37,329 nucleotides of DNA, from the NCBI GenBank assembly GCA_017479885.1, contig JAFVBR010000031.1, forward strand, positions 1 through 37,329, in the 5' to 3' direction. Below, one piece after another: positions 1,328 through 9,106 of the stretch. Under the pieces are notes generated by a model. It searched no databases. It saw nothing but the letters and a program-made list of their open reading frames with translations, and was not told where the DNA came from. Source of the stretch: Paludibacteraceae bacterium (GTDB taxonomy: Bacteria; Bacteroidota; Bacteroidia; Bacteroidales; Paludibacteraceae). The number at the start of each line of letters is the position of its first letter. Position 1 is the stretch's first letter. Made by a program: the position numbers and the translations under genes.

Positions 1328-3679
1328 TTATTTCGTGCCACTCAGAATACCGCTTTCGGTATCTTCGTTATTGAGACGCTGCCAACCCTCGCTGTGCTTG
1401 GTTCCAAAGTCCAGATTGATATTGAAATTGAGCATCAGCACTTGGCGGTAGTTCTGCATAACGGCTGTATTGGCTGTTGGAGCAAGTGCAGACAAATCTT
1501 TGGTGACGGTGGTAGAGCCGTGCGGAGAGAAGGGATTAACCATCATAATTCCGAAGCCGAAATGCTCCGAATTATAATTGATACCTAAATCGTGTGTTAA
1601 TTCACCGATAGAGAGTGTCTCGCCCCATAAGTTATGCTGCGCAGTAACCACATCGGCATAGAAACGCCAACCTTTCAGCAAGTAGAAAATACCTGCACGA
1701 GCACCATAATTGACATGCTTGTGCGTGTAGTTATTTCCCAGACTTACCATGTATTTGACAAACGGCGTGACATTGAACATCAGTTTGTTATCAAGCAGTT
1801 TGACCTGCACGCTCGGCGAGACATGCAATTTGTGATAGCCGCGCTGGTTGTCATACATGCGGATGGCATAAGGCGACCCGTTTATGATTTCCTCAAAGGT
1901 CTCTTCCATAATAGGCTTGTGGTCGTAGCTGTAGTTTGCCCAGAGGTTGAGATTGACGTTTGTACCGCTCCCCGCGGACGGGGTGGACTGCCAAGAGAGT
2001 TCCATCTCATTCGACACATACATGACGGATTTCAGGTTGGGGTTGCCTCGCCGCATCTGGTACTTGTCAATCTGCTGCGTAATGTCTGACAGTTGCGACA
2101 AGGACGGTTGATAACCCGACACATAACCCTTATATTTCCAGAACCAACCTTTGCCAAAGTCGTAACTCATAGTCAGTTGTGGGCGTGCAATCCATGTTGA
2201 TTGCCGTTGTCCGCCCTGTGATATATAGGTGTGCATTGCACCAATGCCAACAACATACGAAAACTTATCAACCCGATGCCGCATTTCTGCAAAGGCGTAG
2301 GTTTCAGCAGTGGTCATATTGACGGTAGCATCCACATCGCCAAGATAGGTATTTTCCACCCATTGCTGATAGTGGCGTGCGCCAACGGTAAGCATAATTT
2401 TATCCCATTCCTTTTCATAAATAGCCTCACCAATAAGCGAATACTTATTGCCTTTTACCGACGAAATAACATTAGTCGTGTCGGTGGCAATCGACCCTAA
2501 AAGTGGTGTTTGCGAAAAATGGCGGTCGGTCTTACTACCAATGTAAGTGCCTAACACATCGAAATATAGGCGTTGCTTGTGGGGTAGATTATGTTGATAG
2601 TAAATGTCTAACGAAGGCGACTGCGACCGACTGCTCTCGTGGTCATGAATCTCGAATGAATCAGTTTGTTGTATCAATCGGCTGTCGCGGTCGGTCTGTG
2701 CGTATGGCGTGTAATTCATATTGTCACGCAAACGGATATTTAGGATATTCTTATCGCCGTTCGTCCAATTATAATTCAATGAGATATTTACGGGGTAAGT
2801 TTTGTAGCGTGTCGGGCTTCCTATTTCTTCATTCTCAACCATTCCAGTACTGAAAAGGTAGGTTTCGCTGTTGGTGCGTGTCCAATAGATGTCCGTGGGT
2901 GAATAGGTCGCTACCGCTTGCAGTGAGGACTTGCCAAAGTGCAGTTTACCAACCATGTAGTAACTACCCATGCCAGGGAGTGTCAGTCCGTTACTACCTG
3001 CGAGCATGAGCGAACCACCCGTGTCGCGGTGGCGCACGATATAATCAACGACTGCTGCCGCACCATTGTAGCGCACACCGGGCTGGTCGTGATATTCCAC
3101 GCGGATAATATCTTTCGGGTTGATGGCTTTTACATCTGCCGTGCTTGCCTCTACACCGTTGATGCGCAGTTGCACGCTCTCATCAGAAAGCGTTTTGACG
3201 GAATTGTCTATAGGATTAATCACGATGCGCGGGATTTGCAAATTCTGTAACAGCGAAACGCCATCCGAGGACGCTTGCATTTGTTCTTTGGACGGCAGAA
3301 GGATTTGCCGGTCCACTTTCTGAATAATGGCTTGACTTTCCACGACCACCTCACCTAATTCCGTTGCGCCTTCTTGCATGAGGATGTCGCCGATGTGGGT
3401 ATCGCCGTTCACGGTAAGAGCCATGCGGATGGTTTCATAGCCGATATAGGAAAGTTCCAGAATATAATCGCCATTACTTGCATTAAGAATAAATTTGCCG
3501 TTGTTGTCGGTAGTTGTTCCGGCTATCTGCACCGTGTCCTGCATCAGCAAGACCGTTGCACCAATGACGGCAGACTTGTCGTTTGCGTCTTTGATACGCC
3601 CTGATATTTTGGCATCGTTCGCCGCTGCGGTCATTGCTACGCAGAGCATTGCCGCGAAAAGAAATATTGTGTGTTTCAT
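1328..3679 (-). CDS. Outer-membrane beta-barrel protein, carboxypeptidase-regulatory/TonB receptor-like
   Basis: This 783-residue protein starts with a signal peptide (MKHTIFLFAAMLCVAMTAAA). A carboxypeptidase-regulatory-like beta-sandwich follows at about residues 23-110 (GRIKDANDKSAVIGATVLL, then DNNGKFIL and YIGYETI). Next comes a plug-like region (about 125-220), then a long beta-barrel of alternating aromatic/polar strands such as SLDIYYQHNLPHKQRLYFDV. It resembles the Bacteroidetes outer membrane beta-barrel family related to TonB-dependent receptors. It lacks a recognisable SusD partner, and the TonB box is not obvious. The promoter region at 3715-3753 matches that of the ECF sigma operon at 8.8 kb almost exactly, so the gene is probably a member of that sigma factor's regulon. 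Substrate unknown. Confidence 0.85.
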   Translation of the reverse strand: MKHTIFLFAAMLCVAMTAAANDAKISGRIKDANDKSAVIGATVLLMQDTVQIAGTTTDNNGKFILNASNGDYILELSYIGYETIRMALTVNGDTHIGDILMQEGATELGEVVVESQAIIQKVDRQILLPSKEQMQASSDGVSLLQNLQIPRIVINPIDNSVKTLSDESVQLRINGVEASTADVKAINPKDIIRVEYHDQPGVRYNGAAAVVDYIVRHRDTGGSLMLAGSNGLTLPGMGSYYMVGKLHFGKSSLQAVATYSPTDIYWTRTNSETYLFSTGMVENEEIGSPTRYKTYPVNISLNYNWTNGDKNILNIRLRDNMNYTPYAQTDRDSRLIQQTDSFEIHDHESSRSQSPSLDIYYQHNLPHKQRLYFDVLGTYIGSKTDRHFSQTPLLGSIATDTTNVISSVKGNKYSLIGEAIYEKEWDKIMLTVGARHYQQWVENTYLGDVDATVNMTTAETYAFAEMRHRVDKFSYVVGIGAMHTYISQGGQRQSTWIARPQLTMSYDFGKGWFWKYKGYVSGYQPSLSQLSDITQQIDKYQMRRGNPNLKSVMYVSNEMELSWQSTPSAGSGTNVNLNLWANYSYDHKPIMEETFEEIINGSPYAIRMYDNQRGYHKLHVSPSVQVKLLDNKLMFNVTPFVKYMVSLGNNYTHKHVNYGARAGIFYLLKGWRFYADVVTAQHNLWGETLSIGELTHDLGINYNSEHFGFGIMMVNPFSPHGSTTVTKDLSALAPTANTAVMQNYRQVLMLNFNINLDFGTKHSEGWQRLNNEDTESGILSGTK

Positions 3680-3714: not shown

Positions 3715-3753
3715 CTCTATATGTAATACGAACGAAACGGCTTTTTCTTACAA
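3715..3753 (-). promoter_or_regulatory. Predicted ECF sigma promoter of the beta-barrel gene
   Basis: On the minus strand it reads TTGTAAGA (3753-3746), 15 bases, then CGTATTACATATAGAG (3730-3715). The same two blocks with the same 15-base spacing precede the ECF sigma gene at 8843-8805. TGTAAG-N16-CGTA fits the usual -35/-10 layout of ECF sigma promoters. The start codon is at 3679, giving an inferred leader of roughly 35 bases. Confidence 0.75.
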
Positions 3754-3780
3754 AGGTTGGAATAAGTTTTGCACCGCCCG

Positions 3781-3846
3781 ACCACCAAGCGACGACCGAC
3801 ACACCACCGACTCACCACCGAGAGACGACCGAGAGAAGACCTACAG
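3781..3846. repeat. Degenerate 11-bp tandem array
   Basis: Six consecutive 11-base units can be read: ACCACCAAGCG, ACGACCGACAC, ACCACCGACTC, ACCACCGAGAG, ACGACCGAGAG and AAGACCTACAG. The array lies between the two divergent promoters at 3.7 and 3.9 kb. Similar arrays are seen at 7077-7147 (11 bp) and 13081-13140 (10 bp). No coding frame is convincing here. Confidence 0.75.
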
Positions 3847-3875
3847 AAGAAAAATCGCCCAAATCGCATCAAACA

Positions 3876-3908
3876 TTTGCATATGTCGAAAAAAAAGCAG
3901 TACCTTTG
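3876..3908 (+). promoter_or_regulatory. Primary sigma promoter for the ATPase/STAS-like pair
   Basis: TTTG at 3876-3879 and TACCTTTG at 3901-3908, 21 bases apart, match the Bacteroidetes -33/-7 consensus (TTTG and TAnnTTTG). The gene starts at 3929, giving a leader of about 16 bases. A 20-mer, AAAAAAGCAGTACCTTTGCA, covering the -7 box is repeated exactly at 9089-9108. Confidence 0.75.
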
Positions 3909-3928
3909 CAGTCTAAAGTTGCAAGGAT

Positions 3929-4645
3929 ATGCGAGACGACACAGACATATTTTCGTTGGAAAGCACATTGTCGGCATTTTTTGATTGTGTCACCAGCAAT
4001 CAAAACGGGTCTGCATATCCATATTTGGATGCAATGATTTCTATTTTTCGGGGACAGACATCACTCGGAGTTATCTCCTTCGCCTTGGATGATGATTCAA
4101 CAGCCAAAGTCATTGCCGAATTAAAGGAGCATCTGCAACCTTATGTTCCGGACTTACTAAAGTCCCTTAATATGCCACTGACCTATCTGTTGGACGAACT
4201 GATCTGTAATATCCAACAGCACGCCCGAACGGACAAGGGCTATGCATATCTGATGTACAACAAGACTGCAAGAACCATAGAGATTATGATAGCCGATTTT
4301 GGTATAACCATCTATGGTAGTTATGTAGCCGCTCAAAAGCATCTTGATAAATTAGGAGATAGTGATGCCGATGCGCTTAATCTCGCGCAGAACGGCTATT
4401 CCGTGAAGAATCTGCCGGAAACGGAGAACCGAGGCTACGGCATTTCGTCGAACATGAAGATGGTGGTGGATGGTTTGCATGGCGAGTTTGCCGTTTTGTC
4501 AGGAAATGCCTTGTTACTGCAAACGGTCAAAGACCGTAAGATATTGGCTTTACCGTCCGAAATAGATTTCAAGGGCACGATGATCATGGTACGTATTCCC
4601 GCGCAAGTGCCTGATGGCTTTAACCTTTATGATTATATGAGTTGA
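3929..4645 (+). CDS. GHKL (histidine kinase-like) ATPase domain protein
   Basis: This 238-residue protein has no membrane segment. It carries degenerate Bergerat-fold ATPase motifs: an N-box-like LLDELICNIQQHA (about residues 87-99), a D/G1-like IADFGITIYGSY in place of the usual DxGxG, and a G2-like RGYGISSNMKMVVDGLHGEF. A C-terminal FKGTMIMVRIP strand resembles the end of the fold. There is no phosphoacceptor His domain, so it resembles RsbW/SpoIIAB-type regulators rather than a sensor kinase. It overlaps translationally with a STAS-like protein at 4648, which supports a switch module in which the two proteins interact. Whether it binds ATP is uncertain because the G1 box is atypical. The target is unknown. 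Confidence 0.75.
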   Translation: MRDDTDIFSLESTLSAFFDCVTSNQNGSAYPYLDAMISIFRGQTSLGVISFALDDDSTAKVIAELKEHLQPYVPDLLKSLNMPLTYLLDELICNIQQHARTDKGYAYLMYNKTARTIEIMIADFGITIYGSYVAAQKHLDKLGDSDADALNLAQNGYSVKNLPETENRGYGISSNMKMVVDGLHGEFAVLSGNALLLQTVKDRKILALPSEIDFKGTMIMVRIPAQVPDGFNLYDYMS

Positions 4646-4647
4646 GT

Positions 4648-4983
4648 ATGAAACAGATTATCAATATACAAGAACAATATGGCGCGGAACTGCACACGCG
4701 TCAGATGATGGAGCGTTTGGCTGCGACTTTGCAACCGGAAAATGAATATCTGTTGGATATGAGTGGCGTTGAGCAGATTTCACGCTCTGCGGCAGACGAA
4801 CTTTATAACATCACGCATAGCGATATGCATGTGGATTTAATTAATCTGGAGCCGTTTGTGGAGAAGATGCTCTCTGCTGTTATCAAAGGTCGTTTCCTGC
4901 CTCGCCAGCACACGGCAGGCGATATGCCGATTATCCATTGTGCCACCATCGGAAGTGTCCAACGCCAACTGATGGCGAAATAA
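4648..4983 (+). CDS. STAS-like domain protein (DUF4325-type)
   Basis: This small protein (111 residues) resembles DUF4325, a STAS-like family. The core is a strand EYLLDMSGVEQISRSAADEL, matching the pattern of a hydrophobic strand, D-x-x-G-V, then Ser and an ADEL helix. A later segment, HVDLINLEPFVEKMLSAVI, fits the next strand and helix. The ATG at 4648 lies two bases after the previous stop (TGA at 4643-4645), so translation is probably coupled. An overlapping TTG at 4642 is less likely. STAS domains often antagonise or are phosphorylated by GHKL-type partners, so it is inferred to be the partner of the preceding ATPase-fold protein. Confidence 0.75.
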   Translation: MKQIINIQEQYGAELHTRQMMERLAATLQPENEYLLDMSGVEQISRSAADELYNITHSDMHVDLINLEPFVEKMLSAVIKGRFLPRQHTAGDMPIIHCATIGSVQRQLMAK

Positions 4984-4989
4984 ATACTA

Positions 4990-5160
4990 CCATCCCTGCT
5001 CCGGGACGTTAGATGAGGTGAAAAAGTGCCTCGGATGGCACTTCGAATGAAGCGCCCGGGTAGTTCCCACTACGAGGAATAGCGCAAACATAGAACAAAA
5101 TAGCGCGTAGCGACGCGCGATAACATATTTTAATTTAAGCGTTTACGACGCTTGTTGACC
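4990..5160. other. Hairpin-rich non-coding region upstream of the 6S-like RNA
   Basis: No ORF of note is present. Several small stem-loops can be drawn on the plus strand: GTGCC / GGCAC around 5027-5042, GTAGT-TCCC-ACTAC around 5061-5074, GCGCGT-AGCG-ACGCGC around 5103-5118, and AAGCGT / ACGCTT around 5138-5152. A weak -7-like TAATTTAA sits at 5131-5138. The region may be the 5' part of a longer structured transcript running into the hairpin at 5162-5353, or a leftover structured spacer. No known RNA family was recognised. Confidence 0.35.
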
Positions 5161-5161
5161 A

Positions 5162-5353
5162 GTTATTTGGAACGTAGGAACTTTCAAAAACGAGAATCTG
5201 GAAACAAGACAAGTAGATGCTCACGGAGTGTATTAACACCCGCCCATGCCCTTGGACGAAAGTCCTTTGGGCATGTTGGGGTATAATATACACACGGCGA
5301 GTAACTGCATTGTTTATCTGATTCTCAAGGCATTTCCTACGGCCTCAAATAAC
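5162..5353 (+). ncRNA. Candidate structured RNA, 6S-like (or long attenuating leader)
   Basis: A ~190-base segment folds as one long interrupted hairpin. GTTATTTG (5162-5169) pairs with CAAATAAC (5346-5353); CGTAGG with CCTACG; GAGAATC with GATTCTC; GTGTAT with ATACAC; and CCCATGCCC with GGGCATGTTGGG. The tip is GGAC-GAAA-GTCC. A closing stem, a large internal bubble, a distal stem and a ~190-base length resemble 6S RNA. A rho-independent terminator follows directly. Conserved motifs of RNase P RNA, tmRNA and SRP RNA were not found. The strand is chosen from the terminator polarity. Alternatively this is the leader of the transferase gene starting at 5399. Confidence 0.45.
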
Positions 5354-5380
5354 GGATAACATCAGTTATTCGCTTTTTTT
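5353..5380 (+). terminator. Rho-independent terminator 18 bases before the next start codon
   Basis: CGGATAAC (5353-5360), loop ATCA, GTTATTCG (5365-5372) forms an 8-bp stem with one G-T pair, followed by C and seven Ts (5374-5380). It ends the structured RNA. The next start codon is at 5399, so either transcription reads through under some conditions or a promoter overlaps the terminator. Confidence 0.8.
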
Positions 5381-5398
5381 GTTGTATATTTCAAACTC

Positions 5399-7042
5399 AT
5401 GAAAAAGATTTTTAACTACATTCTAAGCAACTACTATGTACTTTTGTATGCCTTAGTATTATTGTTTTTTCCCTTCCTTTTTGCATTCTCAGCAGATAAT
5501 TGGGATACTTCGTACAGGATAACACTTAACTTGTTTTATACGTTTTTCGCATATGTTGTTTTGCTTTTATGCCAAGGAAATTTACGAAAAATCCTTGCCG
5601 TCGCATTTTTGTTGATAGCTTTTGCTCCTAATATTATCGTGCAATCCTTTATATTAATGGGCAATGATGTTATACTGAAAAGCACAGACTTTTGGGTGGT
5701 TTTTAACACGAATCCCTCTGAAGCGACAAACCTATTTGCCACACTCTCCGCCAAAGTATTTATTTGGGGGATTATATATGCGCTATCAGCGTTTTCATCA
5801 TTGCTCTTGCTATTTAAGAAAGGCAAGCAGGAATATCACATTCCACGCTATATACAAATAGTGGCAATTGTAATACTAATAGGACTGAGCGCGATCAATC
5901 CTTTTCGCTCTAAAATTCCCATGATTGACTTCTATAAGAGTTTCTATAAGTATCAGAGTGAAATGAGAGAAGTCGCGGAGTTTTACAAGAACAGGGATGA
6001 TATTACTTTGGATGTCATAAACACGCTACCAGTAGGAAAGAAAACGTTTCTGATTATAATCGGAGAAAGTCAAAACAGAAGCCACATGCAATTATATGGC
6101 TATACTCGTCCGACTAATCCAATGTTAATGGAAATAAAGGACGAACTGACTGCTTACACAGATGTATGTTCTCCTGCAATACAAACTTTAGCCTGCATGA
6201 AACAGATATTGACTTTTACTAATTACGAAAAGCCTGATTTATATAAAAAAGAAGCCAATATCATAGAGTTGTTACATGCCGGCGGATATAAGATATTCTG
6301 GTATGACAATCAAGGAAAAACAGGAAATGGCGCATTTGCAATTGACTCTTACACACCGACCTCCTATCGCACAATGGCGAAACGAAGTGATTTCTATGAA
6401 GATGAAAGAAGTTGTGCCATGGATTCAGTCATCCCCATTGAATTGAGCGAAGCATTAAGTGACACAGCGGAACAAAAGGTGATTTTCCTTCATCTTATAG
6501 GAAATCATTTTGACTACCGACAGCGCTATGATAGTGCTTTCAATAAATTTACCACAAACGAAGGTACAAATAGCCCATTTGCAGAAGAATTAACGCAGCG
6601 TGATTTAGAGATTCTTAACGCATATGACAATGGAACTTTATATAATGATTATATCATTCGCACTTGCATTGAGCAACTTCGTTCGCAAGAAGGTATAAGT
6701 GCAATGTTATATTTTTCTGATCATGGGGAAGAAGTTTATGATTGTATGAAAAATGCAGGACGCTCGTTTGGTGAAGGAATTTCTCCTTCTATGTGTGAAC
6801 CTCCCTTGGTTCTTTGGACTAATGATGCATACAATGCCATTAGCAACTTACATTTGGATTCTTCTATTCCTGTGTGTACAGATGATATTATCTATGGAAT
6901 GATGGACTTGGCAGGGATTCAATACCATTTGTATGATTCCACCAAAAGTATATTTCGTCAATCCTATATACCTAAAGAACGAATGGTTCAAGGACAAACA
7001 TACCAAAGTATAAAAGAAAAGTATTTGACAAAAGAGCAATAA
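5399..7042 (+). CDS. Phosphoethanolamine transferase-like inner-membrane enzyme (EptA/CptA family)
   Basis: This 547-residue protein has about five N-terminal membrane helices (residues ~10-165) and a periplasmic alkaline phosphatase/sulfatase-fold domain. The domain begins near residue 215 with IIIGESQNRSHMQLYGYTRP. S224 occupies the place of the usual Thr nucleophile, and the RSHMQLYGY.R.T.P signature is typical of the CptA-like branch. The metal-binding YFSDHGEE motif is at residues 438-445 (D441, H442). The family moves phosphoethanolamine from phosphatidylethanolamine to lipid A, LPS core or other envelope glycans. In many bacteria this lowers sensitivity to cationic peptides. The exact acceptor cannot be told. 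The leader is unusual: a terminator ends only 18 bases upstream of the start. Its third-codon composition is more AT-rich than its neighbours, a possible sign of transfer. Confidence 0.85.
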   Translation: MKKIFNYILSNYYVLLYALVLLFFPFLFAFSADNWDTSYRITLNLFYTFFAYVVLLLCQGNLRKILAVAFLLIAFAPNIIVQSFILMGNDVILKSTDFWVVFNTNPSEATNLFATLSAKVFIWGIIYALSAFSSLLLLFKKGKQEYHIPRYIQIVAIVILIGLSAINPFRSKIPMIDFYKSFYKYQSEMREVAEFYKNRDDITLDVINTLPVGKKTFLIIIGESQNRSHMQLYGYTRPTNPMLMEIKDELTAYTDVCSPAIQTLACMKQILTFTNYEKPDLYKKEANIIELLHAGGYKIFWYDNQGKTGNGAFAIDSYTPTSYRTMAKRSDFYEDERSCAMDSVIPIELSEALSDTAEQKVIFLHLIGNHFDYRQRYDSAFNKFTTNEGTNSPFAEELTQRDLEILNAYDNGTLYNDYIIRTCIEQLRSQEGISAMLYFSDHGEEVYDCMKNAGRSFGEGISPSMCEPPLVLWTNDAYNAISNLHLDSSIPVCTDDIIYGMMDLAGIQYHLYDSTKSIFRQSYIPKERMVQGQTYQSIKEKYLTKEQ

Positions 7043-7076
7043 GAATTACGAGCGTCATGACCGACCGCGCGCCGCT

Positions 7077-7147
7077 TACGAGCAATCTACGAGACACTTA
7101 CGAGACACCTACGGAACGATAGACCGACGGGATACCGACGAGATACC
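7077..7147. repeat. Degenerate 11-bp tandem array
   Basis: Consecutive 11-base units are TACGAGCAATC, TACGAGACACT, TACGAGACACC and TACGGAACGAT, then after two bases ACCGACGGGAT, ACCGACGAGAT and ACC. An outlying unit, TACGAGCGTCA, is at 7047-7057. It lies just 3' of the transferase gene and is built like the array at 3781-3846, sharing ACCGA cores. Confidence 0.7.
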
Positions 7148-7180
7148 ATGGTTGAATCTTAATAATCGGATATTTTGCTT

Positions 7181-7278
7181 CGTAAAGGGCATAGAGCAAC
7201 CGTTCTACATACTATGGTATGAAGAAATTTGGTGAAAAACTTTGATAGCCGCAGAACGGTCGCTACAAAGCCTTTATG
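7181..7278. repeat. Imperfect 26-bp inverted repeat between convergent genes
   Basis: The arm at 7181-7206 and the reverse complement of 7253-7278 match at 19 of 26 positions, including a perfect ACCGTTCT / AGAACGGT core and AAAGG / CCTTT near the outer ends. The 46-base middle holds a smaller hairpin, CATAC / GTATG (7208-7221). It could act as a shared terminator structure or be a remnant of a MITE-like element. No target duplication was recognised. Confidence 0.5.
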
Positions 7279-7290
7279 GAAAAGAACAGA

Positions 7291-7725
7291 TTATTTGTCT
7301 TTGAGCATTACAACTACCGAACAATCGCCCTCACGAGTATTGCAGATAATAAACTCAGTATCGGAAGACAGGAATATCGCGTCATCGTTACCGTTGGAGT
7401 GAGACTCCATAAGGATTTCGTAGCCTTTCTCGCTCGAAAGTTTCTGAATATCTTTGGAGAGTTGATGCTTCTTGGCTCCTTTAGCGGTAATGATAAGCAT
7501 TCTGTTGAAATTGGCGAACTTCTCAAGACCTGTGCCTTTGGTGTCGATGCTATCAAATACCACCTGCCCTGCTGTAGCCAAAGACAAACCGGCGCTGAAC
7601 ATGGCTTTGTTGATACATACATACTCCACGCCTTCCATCTTGGCGTATTTCTCAAATACTTTATTTTGTGCTTGTGCAGCGATGCCGCAGAGAGCGATGG
7701 CTGCTACTAAAAAAATACGTTTCAT
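7291..7725 (-). CDS. DUF4252 family secreted protein
   Basis: This 144-residue protein has a signal peptide (MKRIFLVAAIALCGIAAQAQ) and a compact domain resembling DUF4252. It shows YVCINKAMFSAG near the N-terminus, the central NRMLIITAKG strand, and a C-terminal DTEFIICNTREGDCSVVVMLKDK pattern. It is the last gene of the ECF sigma operon, 7 bases after the anti-sigma-like gene. Bacteroidetes often place DUF4252 genes next to ECF sigma factors. The family has no known biochemical function. Context suggests an envelope protein made and controlled with the sigma factor. Confidence 0.8.
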   Translation of the reverse strand: MKRIFLVAAIALCGIAAQAQNKVFEKYAKMEGVEYVCINKAMFSAGLSLATAGQVVFDSIDTKGTGLEKFANFNRMLIITAKGAKKHQLSKDIQKLSSEKGYEILMESHSNGNDDAIFLSSDTEFIICNTREGDCSVVVMLKDK

Positions 7726-7732
7726 AAATTTA

Positions 7733-8299
7733 TTATTTTAATAGTTGATATTGGGTTGCTTTCTGAATGGTTTTATTCATTTCGTTTACCTGCTCCATTG
7801 CGATATTGGCAGATTGTAGAAAGGGAGCCGTGGAACGGTTTATGATGTCATTGGCATATAGGATTTCTTGTGCTGCTTCTTCGGCATTAGCACATGTGTC
7901 GCGGAATGGGTTATTCATGCTTTGATACCATCCGATGCTGCCGCCCAGTGCCATCAGAACAGCCACCACAACGGCTGCGCGGTAAAACATCTTCGGAGGT
8001 GTTTTCAGACGGTAGATGATGCCTTTGCGTGGCTCCGACATCGGCATAGGTTGTTGCTCGTTCTCTTGCCCGAGATTATTCACAAAAGCGGTTATTTCTT
8101 CGGCAATGTCAGTCGGCAACTGCACATCTGTTGTCTCTGTCATGGCAAGAAACAGTTTGTAATCCGCTTCCCATTCGGCAGGAATATTGCCAGAACGGAA
8201 GAACTCGGCGAGTTGCCTCTCTTCTGTCGGTGTGGTATGCCCCTCGTAAAAGCGTGCAAGAAGTTCACCTGCTTGTTCTTTGTTCAAAATCTGTTTCAT
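7733..8299 (-). CDS. Probable single-pass membrane anti-sigma factor
   Basis: The protein has 188 residues. The first ~60 are helical and charged (GELLARFYEGHTTPTEERQL), as in cytoplasmic sigma-binding domains of Bacteroidetes anti-sigma proteins. There is no zinc-binding HxxxCxxC motif. A single membrane helix lies at about 106-124 (FYRAAVVVAVLMALGG), followed by a short periplasmic part. Its start codon overlaps the end of the sigma factor gene by four bases (8296-8299), the usual arrangement for a sigma/anti-sigma pair. The anti-sigma role is inferred from position, topology and the N-terminal pattern rather than a firm family match. Confidence 0.7.
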   Translation of the reverse strand: MKQILNKEQAGELLARFYEGHTTPTEERQLAEFFRSGNIPAEWEADYKLFLAMTETTDVQLPTDIAEEITAFVNNLGQENEQQPMPMSEPRKGIIYRLKTPPKMFYRAAVVVAVLMALGGSIGWYQSMNNPFRDTCANAEEAAQEILYANDIINRSTAPFLQSANIAMEQVNEMNKTIQKATQYQLLK

Positions 8300-8787
8300 A
8301 TTTGGTATGTTGCTGTTAATTCTCGTAATTTCTTTCTCGCTCGTGAGAGTAAGGTGTAGATGTTTTCGCGGCTGAAATGGGTCAGTTCTTGTATTTGTTC
8401 TATCTCCAATCCGTCAATGGTGCGAAGCCGCAGTACTAATTGCTGGTCACGGGGCAGTTGCTTTATCAGTTCTATTATTGCGCTGAGGTCACTCGCAGCT
8501 TCGATTCGGTTTTCGGTGTTGTAGTCCAGAAATGTGTCGATAATTTCTTCGTTTGGCTCTGCGTATCGGGCTTTGAGACGGTCAAGGCAGTTGTTCCGCA
8601 CCATCGTCAAAAGAAGGGCAAGTGGCGGTTTGTCTGGCTCAATGCTATCGCGTTTGTTCCAAAGTTCCGCATACACATCCTGCACGCAGTCTCGCGCCTC
8701 GTCACGGTTGCGGAGCAAGTTATATGCCAATGCATACATCTTTCCGCTAAACGGCAGATAGGTCGCTGTGAATTGCTCGTGCGTCAT
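8296..8787 (-). CDS. ECF-type RNA polymerase sigma factor
   Basis: The protein has 163 residues from the ATG at 8787. The frame is open further upstream, but that part runs through the promoter and is not protein-like. A sigma-2 region spans about residues 8-75, with YNLLRNRDEARDCVQDVYAELW as the core recognition/-10 segment. A sigma-4 region spans about 105-160, with LPRDQQLVLRLRTIDGLEIEQI and the HTH FSRENIYTLLSRARKKLREL. It heads an operon with a probable anti-sigma factor and a DUF4252 gene. Its promoter (8805-8843) has the same two blocks as that of the beta-barrel gene at 1.3-3.7 kb, so it probably activates itself and that gene. Confidence 0.9.
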   Translation of the reverse strand: MTHEQFTATYLPFSGKMYALAYNLLRNRDEARDCVQDVYAELWNKRDSIEPDKPPLALLLTMVRNNCLDRLKARYAEPNEEIIDTFLDYNTENRIEAASDLSAIIELIKQLPRDQQLVLRLRTIDGLEIEQIQELTHFSRENIYTLLSRARKKLRELTATYQI

Positions 8788-8804
8788 ACGTTGTCCGGAT
8801 TGTT

Positions 8805-8843
8805 CTCTATATGTAATACGATTATCGTGCCAAAATCTTACAA
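8805..8843 (-). promoter_or_regulatory. Predicted autoregulatory ECF sigma promoter
   Basis: Minus strand: TTGTAAGA (8843-8836), 15 bases, then CGTATTACATATAGAG (8820-8805). Both blocks and the spacing are identical to 3753-3715, while the spacer itself differs, which argues for selection on the two contact sites. The sigma factor start codon is at 8787. Confidence 0.8.
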
Positions 8844-9074: not shown

Positions 9075-9106
9075 TTTGCATTATTAGGAAAAAAGCAGTA
9101 CCTTTG
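9075..9106 (+). promoter_or_regulatory. Primary sigma promoter of the glucosaminidase-DciA-MutS2 genes
   Basis: TTTG at 9075-9078 and TACCTTTG at 9099-9106 are separated by 20 bases. The start codon is at 9127 (leader ~16 bases). The -7 region shares a 20-base identity with the promoter at 3.9 kb. Confidence 0.75.

Follow-up and report, generated by a model that had tools for sequence, protein, structure and literature searches.

A promoter-like element shared by an ECF sigma factor operon and an outer-membrane barrel gene in a Paludibacteraceae genome

Can a sigma factor operon and a gene placed apart from it be governed by one and the same start signal? The question is raised by a 37,329-nucleotide stretch of DNA from a Paludibacteraceae bacterium (positions 1 to 37,329 of contig JAFVBR010000031.1, GenBank assembly GCA_017479885.1), here called the window. 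An operon on its minus strand encodes an extracytoplasmic function (ECF) sigma factor, a putative anti-sigma factor and a DUF4252 protein. A gene for an outer-membrane beta-barrel protein lies further along the same strand, separated from the DUF4252 gene by 3.5 kb with three genes on the opposite strand. A 39-bp promoter-like element stands ahead of both the operon and the barrel gene. We think it highly probable that this element is a promoter read by the ECF sigma factor (8787-8296) and that it drives both the sigma operon and the barrel gene. Comparison of sequences shows that the element is conserved and tied to the sigma gene, and it also shows the order of the operon and an order-wide ancestral promoter.

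Conservation of the element and its tie to the sigma gene

The two elements agree in their outer blocks and differ in their spacers. The element ahead of the sigma gene reads TTGTAAGA-TTTTGGCACGATAAT-CGTATTACATATAGAG and that ahead of the barrel gene TTGTAAGA-AAAAGCCGTTTCGTT-CGTATTACATATAGAG (Table 1). All 24 block positions are the same, compared to 3 of the 15 spacer positions (12 differ; Fisher p = 1.2e-7), just as an earlier reading made from the window alone (the sequence-only reading) had described them, and the paired-element observation is confirmed. A T precedes CGTA in both sites, which brings the agreeing positions to 25 in total. The -10 C sits 33 bp ahead of the sigma ATG at 8787, and the barrel ATG at 3679 is 35 bases below its own element. 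The spacing of 16 bp between -35 and -10 ahead of the sigma gene is that of an ECF autoregulon and was found at 54/54 sigma starts in the genus, one per genome.

The element is rare in the genome that contains the window. Within the window, a search that allowed as many as 3 mismatches in the 15-base core found 2 sites with 1.02 expected, and 28 of 100 shuffled sequences had as many, which is not significant; the case was therefore built genome-wide and across relatives. The exact 15-base core occurred in the 2.80-Mb genome solely at the two window sites (control, 0). Searching all 24 positions at up to 3 mismatches yielded 3 sites, versus 0 for the reversed pattern, the third being 5' of a decayed sigma copy on another contig, C47. 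Relaxing the 15-position core to 2 mismatches gave 16 sites versus 14 for the reversed control. We counted the 4 sites with 0-1 mismatch as signal; the 12 with 2 mismatches were at chance level and were left unused, and we claim no targets from them. A wider regulon in this genome was rejected on the same grounds. The four sites are ahead of the sigma operon, the barrel gene, the decayed second sigma (C47), and a second ECF operon (also on C47), and the regulon looks tiny on this count.

The motif and the sigma gene occur together across the genus. We used a panel of 178 genus genomes, many with ruminant-gut sample names. A sigma match was found in 61; two of these (G087 and G133, 26-37% identical) were dropped, leaving 59, all at least 62% identical. 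A motif was called at no more than one mismatch over 20 core positions, since a reversed control also matched at up to 3 mismatches. Fifteen sites with 2-3 mismatches were set aside, and eight more genomes that had such sites alone were scored motif-negative. By these rules 59 genomes had the sigma gene, 60 the motif, 54 both, 5 the sigma gene only, and 6 the motif only (Fisher p = 1e-32, uncorrected for kinship and overstating independence because the genomes are kin).

The discordant genomes mostly show broken contigs or decayed genes. Among those with sigma only, the contig begins within the sigma gene in G018 and G192, and past it in G030 and G171, in which just a truncated paralogue (described below) was matched; G179 has a decayed sigma fragment without a promoter. 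Among those with the motif only, sigma remnants lie 3' of it in G081, G102 and G124, the promoter is followed by the barrel gene in G146, and the motif is about 60 bp or less from the contig end in G177 and G193.

The sigma promoters are conserved over considerable divergence. In the 54 sigma promoters (one per genome, some ahead of a broken or stub sigma), the 20-position core was exact in 48 and had one mismatch in 6. The synonymous divergence (dS) of the sigma gene between the window and G027, G032 and G083 was 1.1-1.4. An A-tract 12-16 bases 5' of the -35 block is also conserved among the sigma promoters. In a second lineage (11 loci, with sigma 65-68% identical), TTGTAAGA-N15-CGTAT was kept in 11/11.

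An order-wide promoter and the altered recognition helix

The promoter in the window appears to be a derived form of an older one. Of 119 genomes searched in the order, 50 had a sigma gene scoring above the family cut-off. We examined 30 of these loci; 29 came from other families, and the remaining one, G218, belongs to a different genus within the same family. The motif TGTAA-N17-CGT[CA] was found no more than 120 bp from the start in 20 of the 30 sigma genes (mean of 0.04 in shuffles), and ten alternative spacings gave one match in all. With one mismatch allowed, the motif was found in 25/30 versus 0.65 in shuffles. The 20 sites have TGTAAT (19) or TGTAAC (1) and CGTC in all, that is, TGTAA(T/C)-N16-CGTC. 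The window promoter departs from this family form: it has the same geometry with the letters TGTAAG-N16-CGTA, and TGTAAG with CGTA replaces the order-wide form in the genus of the window and in the second lineage. Because the motif lies ahead of 20/30 family sigma genes in the order, we read the window promoter as a derived form of an old autoregulatory promoter; that the element is a promoter is well supported by sequence. The sequence-only reading had noted that TGTAAG-N16-CGTA fits the general geometry of ECF promoters; rather than being generic, its letters are a lineage form that goes with a changed recognition helix.

That change affects three adjacent residues in the recognition helix of sigma region 4. 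The order-wide form is RVN (R in 19/20, V in 17/20, N in 16/20), and YTL is present in all 16 sigma factors compared from the genus (11) and the second lineage (5), which share residues, the YTL trio among them, that differ from the order-wide form. We infer a connection between the altered helix and the altered promoter; the two are indistinguishable from one event on one branch. If so, this is a natural case of a change in promoter specificity alongside a change in the recognition helix. The two motifs also provide searchable promoters for a widespread Bacteroidales sigma family: TGTAAT-N16-CGTC for the order and TGTAAG-N16-CGTATTACATATA for the ruminant-gut lineage. Our literature search, which left subscription journals mostly outside, found no published promoter for PG0214-type sigma factors and no function beyond expression data; DUF4252 was mentioned in five of the papers covered. 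Group-wide surveys of ECF promoters exist and may hold the order-wide motif; none was found in this search.

The genes of the sigma operon are kept together. The order of sigma, small membrane protein and DUF4252 (8787-7291 in the window) is also found in genus relatives and, as far as the open frames show by eye, in the majority of 20 loci from the wider order. A longer open frame from a TTG was rejected as the start of sigma; the ATG at 8787 agrees with the relatives. The 188-aa membrane protein is a putative anti-sigma factor by its position and topology. Pfam and NCBIfam scans of it, FecR included, gave no match, and there was no credible sequence match in the PDB. Its AlphaFold model has four helices in residues 7-77 with a mean predicted local distance difference test score (pLDDT) of 49.0, which is low confidence. 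The DUF4252 protein also has a weak match, under the cut-off, to NF058626 (GFO_1090). The sequence-only reading had predicted that the sigma factor activates itself and its anti-sigma and DUF4252 partners, and the association of motif and sigma over the 178 genomes, together with the order-wide ancestral promoter, argues for this.

The barrel gene and competing explanations

In many relatives the barrel gene is part of the sigma operon. We counted 34 contigs on which the promoter, sigma, anti-sigma and DUF4252 follow one another on a single strand. The barrel gene is directly 3' of DUF4252 in 24 of them; only a barrel stub of 20 or 28 residues is left past DUF4252 in G090 and G106; an insert lies between the two genes in the genome of the window (G000), G196 and G149; no barrel gene is found in G065 and G072; and the contig stops too early in G024, G175 and G108. 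The sequence-only reading had called the barrel gene distant. That arrangement is probably derived: in the window a 3.5-kb insert splits what is one operon in 24/34. The barrel protein is under strong purifying selection (ratio of nonsynonymous to synonymous divergence, dN/dS, 0.06-0.08 versus four relatives). A PDB sequence search with it matched the N-terminal domain alone. Its AlphaFold model has a mean pLDDT of 37.7, and at this value and that of the anti-sigma model the two are unsuited to fold searches.

Three of the five barrel genes that are not directly behind DUF4252 have the motif (G000, G196 and G146). The private barrel promoter is perfect in both the window and G196, with 4/15 spacer and 0/24 block differences between them, and the insert in G196 differs from that in the window, containing an AAA_14/DUF4143 gene and a short-chain dehydrogenase gene. 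In the barrel tree, the three barrels with their own promoter sit among operon barrels, and so the split looks derived. They need three changes on the tree. A single clade of all three was rejected (p = 0.03, approximately unbiased test), and a single clade of the window and G196 barrels was not (p = 0.18); these two share leader sequence (by eye), and recombination of the coding part is therefore possible. Six full-length barrel paralogues (61-68% identical) had at best 7/20 mismatches within 400 bp upstream.

Based on these comparisons, we suggest the following course of events. The 188-aa membrane protein would keep the sigma factor inactive, and a signal, presumably from the envelope, would free it. 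RNA polymerase with the freed sigma would then initiate at the 39-bp element, raising sigma, anti-sigma and DUF4252 as feedback from 8843-8805 and the barrel protein from the second copy at 3753-3715. The kinase/STAS/phosphoethanolamine-transferase insert would have split off the barrel gene, which a promoter copy of its own would retain in the regulon. The start signal is the same and the barrel gene is inside the sigma cluster in many relatives, so the sigma operon and the barrel gene are very probably switched on together. This would name a concrete output of the sigma family, an outer-membrane barrel protein, and would be a natural case of a copied promoter that holds a regulon together after an operon split.

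Several observations weigh against a promoter of this kind shared by both transcription units. The genus genomes are related to one another and mostly metagenome assemblies, and 52 hits at up to 3 mismatches are tabulated for the reversed control of the genus scan. Ten of the 30 order-level sigma genes are without the exact ancestral motif, including that of G218, the sole locus that represents a different genus within the same family. The barrel promoter in the window has no A-tract (by eye) and may be weaker for it. No barrel gene was found over 6-8 kb past DUF4252 in G065 and G072, or past DUF4252 in the second-lineage (67%) loci that reach far enough. The barrel genes of G149 and G152, with a 1-kb insert, have no motif (best 8/20 mismatches in 900 bp upstream), and G146 has the promoter and then the barrel gene with no sigma match. 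Because the split barrels of G149 and G152 carry no motif, we regard the barrel as an accessory member of the regulon. Co-regulation of the barrel, as proposed in the sequence-only reading, is thus backed by the operons that run into the barrel gene and is not universal.

The conserved element might instead be recognised by something other than this sigma factor. TGTAA ... TTACA forms an inverted repeat, with its arms about 21 bp apart, in both window copies, as would be expected of the binding site of a dimeric transcription factor, and conservation extends about 12 bases past the -10, further than a plain ECF promoter presumably needs. However, the TTACA arm is altered in 4/11 loci of the second lineage (TCACA or TTATA) in which TTGTAAGA and CGTAT are kept in 11/11, G027, G065, G099 and G021 read ATACA rather than TTACA, and the 20 order-level sites share only TGTAA(T/C)-N16-CGTC with a single spacing. 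A dimeric factor is, in our judgement, very unlikely. Another ECF sigma of the same genome could also read the element, or read it instead. The candidate is the second ECF operon (ECF2: sigma, a 103-aa protein and DUF6249; C47:152707-154675, or L123:6708-8676). Its promoter is identical to the window sigma promoter over 28 bases in a row, spacer included, with 0/15 spacer and 5/24 block differences; the site was one of the 15 set aside in the genus scan and was retained solely for this identity. Overlap of ECF sigma factors within one genome is suggested for flavobacteria in the available part of PMC9723704. Against this, the box upstream of ECF2-like operons in L181 and L253 is not the same (it reads TGTAAC ... 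TGTATC, by eye), and the motif tracks the PG0214-type sigma across the genus. We consider recognition by ECF2 or another such sigma unlikely. The reading of the element as a promoter common to the sigma operon and the barrel gene is supported, with the addition that it is also ahead of ECF2 and the sigma remnant on C47.

The barrel copy could also be a non-working relic of operon duplication and internal deletion. Promoter copies ahead of a sigma stub are common debris in the genus: they are retained on C47, where a decayed copy of the window-type operon follows ECF2 (sigma residues 1-69 adjoining DUF4252 residues 35-144), in G163 (sigma start fused to barrel residues 683-783), and in G074, G200, G081, G102 and G124. 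The barrel copy in the window, however, is perfect at 24/24 and lies close to an intact barrel gene under the purifying selection noted above, and the barrel promoter in G196 has changed in its spacer and not in its blocks. A relic therefore seems quite improbable to us, and we favour a working promoter read by the PG0214-type sigma.

Related systems, further copies and neighbouring genes

Systems in which an autoregulated ECF operon has a satellite target are already known; the lineage-specific variants in this case are the form of the promoter, the change in the recognition helix, the barrel gene and its own promoter copy, and the truncated sigma. The FecI/FecR/FecA systems, with a sigma factor, a membrane regulator and an outer-membrane barrel that has an extra N-terminal domain, resemble the set in the window. 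They differ from it in that the window sigma does not reach the cut-off of TIGR02985, the FecI-like model for Bacteroides, FecR is not matched by the membrane protein, and the barrel N-terminus matches the carboxypeptidase-regulatory-like domain of TonB receptors rather than a FecA-type signalling domain. The dual-membrane pairs of the EcfO/Reo type in Bacteroides and Phocaeicola likewise have an ECF sigma, an envelope regulon and an outer-membrane barrel; in these, as far as the available part of PMC9308784 describes them, the anti-sigma factor itself carries the barrel as its C-terminal part, whereas the window has a separate barrel protein and a 188-aa putative anti-sigma factor.

The closest described operon is PG_0214-PG_0218 of Porphyromonas gingivalis (sigma, anti-sigma, DUF4252 and two hypotheticals). 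The gene order is the same, and the window sigma is above the cut-off of the NCBIfam model named for PG0214; it differs from the norm of that family in its recognition helix, and the available part of PMC10101095 names no such barrel gene. According to that part, PG_0214-PG_0218 are up 5.3-10.6 fold in a PG_0686 mutant under peroxide (PMC10101095). PG_0214, PG_0217, PG_0218 and PG_0987 are reported down together in a PG0720 mutant in the available part of PMC8757827. A second set, PG_0985-PG_0987 (sigma, hypothetical and DUF4252), which is the same triad as in the window by annotation only, changes in the same data sets (available parts of PMC10101095 and PMC10434189). The joint changes in the PG_0686 and PG0720 mutants fit one circuit; they do not name its signal.

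Table 1. Features of the window and of related loci
Feature	Position	Strand	Details
Predicted ECF promoter, sigma operon	8805..8843	-	-35 block TTGTAAGA 8843-8836; spacer 8835-8821; -10 and downstream block CGTATTACATATAGAG 8820-8805
Second promoter copy, immediately 5' of barrel gene	3715..3753	-	-35 block 3753-3746; spacer 3745-3731; -10 and downstream block 3730-3715
ECF sigma factor, 163 aa, PG0214/GFO_1088 family	8296..8787	-	NCBIfam NF058625, 145.6 bits (cut-off 130); Sigma70_r2 and r4_2
Putative anti-sigma factor, 188 aa	7733..8299	-	Adjoins sigma, kept in relatives; hydrophobic segment at about residues 106-125 (by eye) between N-terminal and C-terminal parts
DUF4252 protein, 144 aa	7291..7725	-	PF14060, 28.8 bits (cut-off 23.9); signal-peptide-like N-terminus (by eye)
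Inverted-repeat intergenic element	7181..7279	-	Immediately behind DUF4252, then insert; by eye
Insert gene 3, phosphoethanolamine transferase-like (sulfatase fold), 547 aa	5399..7042	+	PF00884 above cut-off; CptA/EptA-type NCBIfam models below cut-offs
Insert gene 2, STAS-like, 111 aa	4648..4983	+	PF13466, E 0.0056, under its cut-off
Insert gene 1, 238 aa	3929..4645	+	No Pfam/NCBIfam match
Outer-membrane beta-barrel protein, 783 aa, N-terminal carboxypeptidase-regulatory-like domain	1328..3679	-	PF13715, PF14905
Truncated sigma paralogue	L229:8845-9195, L164:11875, L173:11877, L175:10567, L214:3635, L216:3448, L217:1774, L218:113, L220:359, L221:3508, L222:3275, L223:2708
Promoters before sigma stubs	L096:6429, L120:4410, L122:8728, L231:6930, L244:4786, L252:9979, L257:10435		From internal operon deletions
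Motif 5' of DUF2807 head-GIN gene	L111:6407-6445, L114:8377-8415

Twelve relatives have a truncated copy of sigma behind the barrel gene, as the fifth and last gene of the operon. At 12 of 33 barrel 3' ends (from 32 genomes; three with less than 300 bp downstream), a frame of 113-123 codons lies 9 bases past the TAA that ends the barrel; in G030 the barrel frame itself is broken and does not end at the TAA before the truncated sigma. No truncated sigma was found behind the barrel in the genome of the window, and our literature search, within the limits given above, found none of this kind published. All 12 frames are open, and each encodes the first domain of sigma alone (residues 1 to about 72), after which comes a conserved tail (DAPIVIVNV...HHYHEG...). 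The two frames that we scanned matched sigma region 2 only. The dN/dS is about 0.21 overall and 0.14 in the tail, versus 0.10 for full sigma. Residues 1-44, which we take to hold the part of a sigma factor that grips RNA polymerase, are near to those of sigma (dN 0.07, dS 0.29), and the -10-reading part has diverged (dN 0.44, dS 1.9 for residues 45-84). Stronger selection on residues 1-44 was considered and dropped because dN/dS is alike in both parts (0.17 and 0.23), and the unequal divergence may be due to gene conversion involving the sigma gene. One tentative and rather doubtful idea from these sequences is that the truncated protein would be a built-in mini-sigma, made last by the operon, that titrates the anti-sigma factor or keeps polymerase occupied, thereby shaping or ending the response.

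The sigma-operon locus readily duplicates and decays, and in many assemblies a break falls within the sigma gene; the repeated sigma 5' end may be behind many of these breaks. One further type of gene has the motif. A DUF2807 head-GIN protein gene is present in 2/178 genus genomes; in both, the motif sits roughly 30 bp ahead of the gene start, and the gene appears to be a separate target of this promoter. Because the copies share 79% identity and have upstream regions that look homologous, the two may represent a single event.

The junction between DUF4252 and the barrel gene has features of its own. An inverted-repeat element follows DUF4252 in the window, and a similar one was seen by eye between DUF4252 and the barrel start in 12 long gaps from 11 relatives' genomes; from its place in these relatives, 7181-7279 marks the old junction. 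In operons with the longer gap, this element could be an attenuator or a terminator. The insert in the window is flanked by arrays with an 11-base period (3780-3850 and 7075-7147), which may mark its mode of arrival. Insert gene 1 presumably encodes a GHKL/RsbW-type ATPase, judged by eye from the motifs DELICNIQQHA and GYGISS. With the STAS-like gene that follows (3929-4983), it could form a partner-switching module between the sigma operon and the barrel gene. Finally, TACCTTTG boxes at 3901-3908 and 9099-9106 stand ahead of the plus-strand genes at 3929 and 9127. Unlike the ECF elements on the other strand, they resemble the Bacteroidetes housekeeping -7 element, TAnnTTTG, as given in the available part of PMC9723704.

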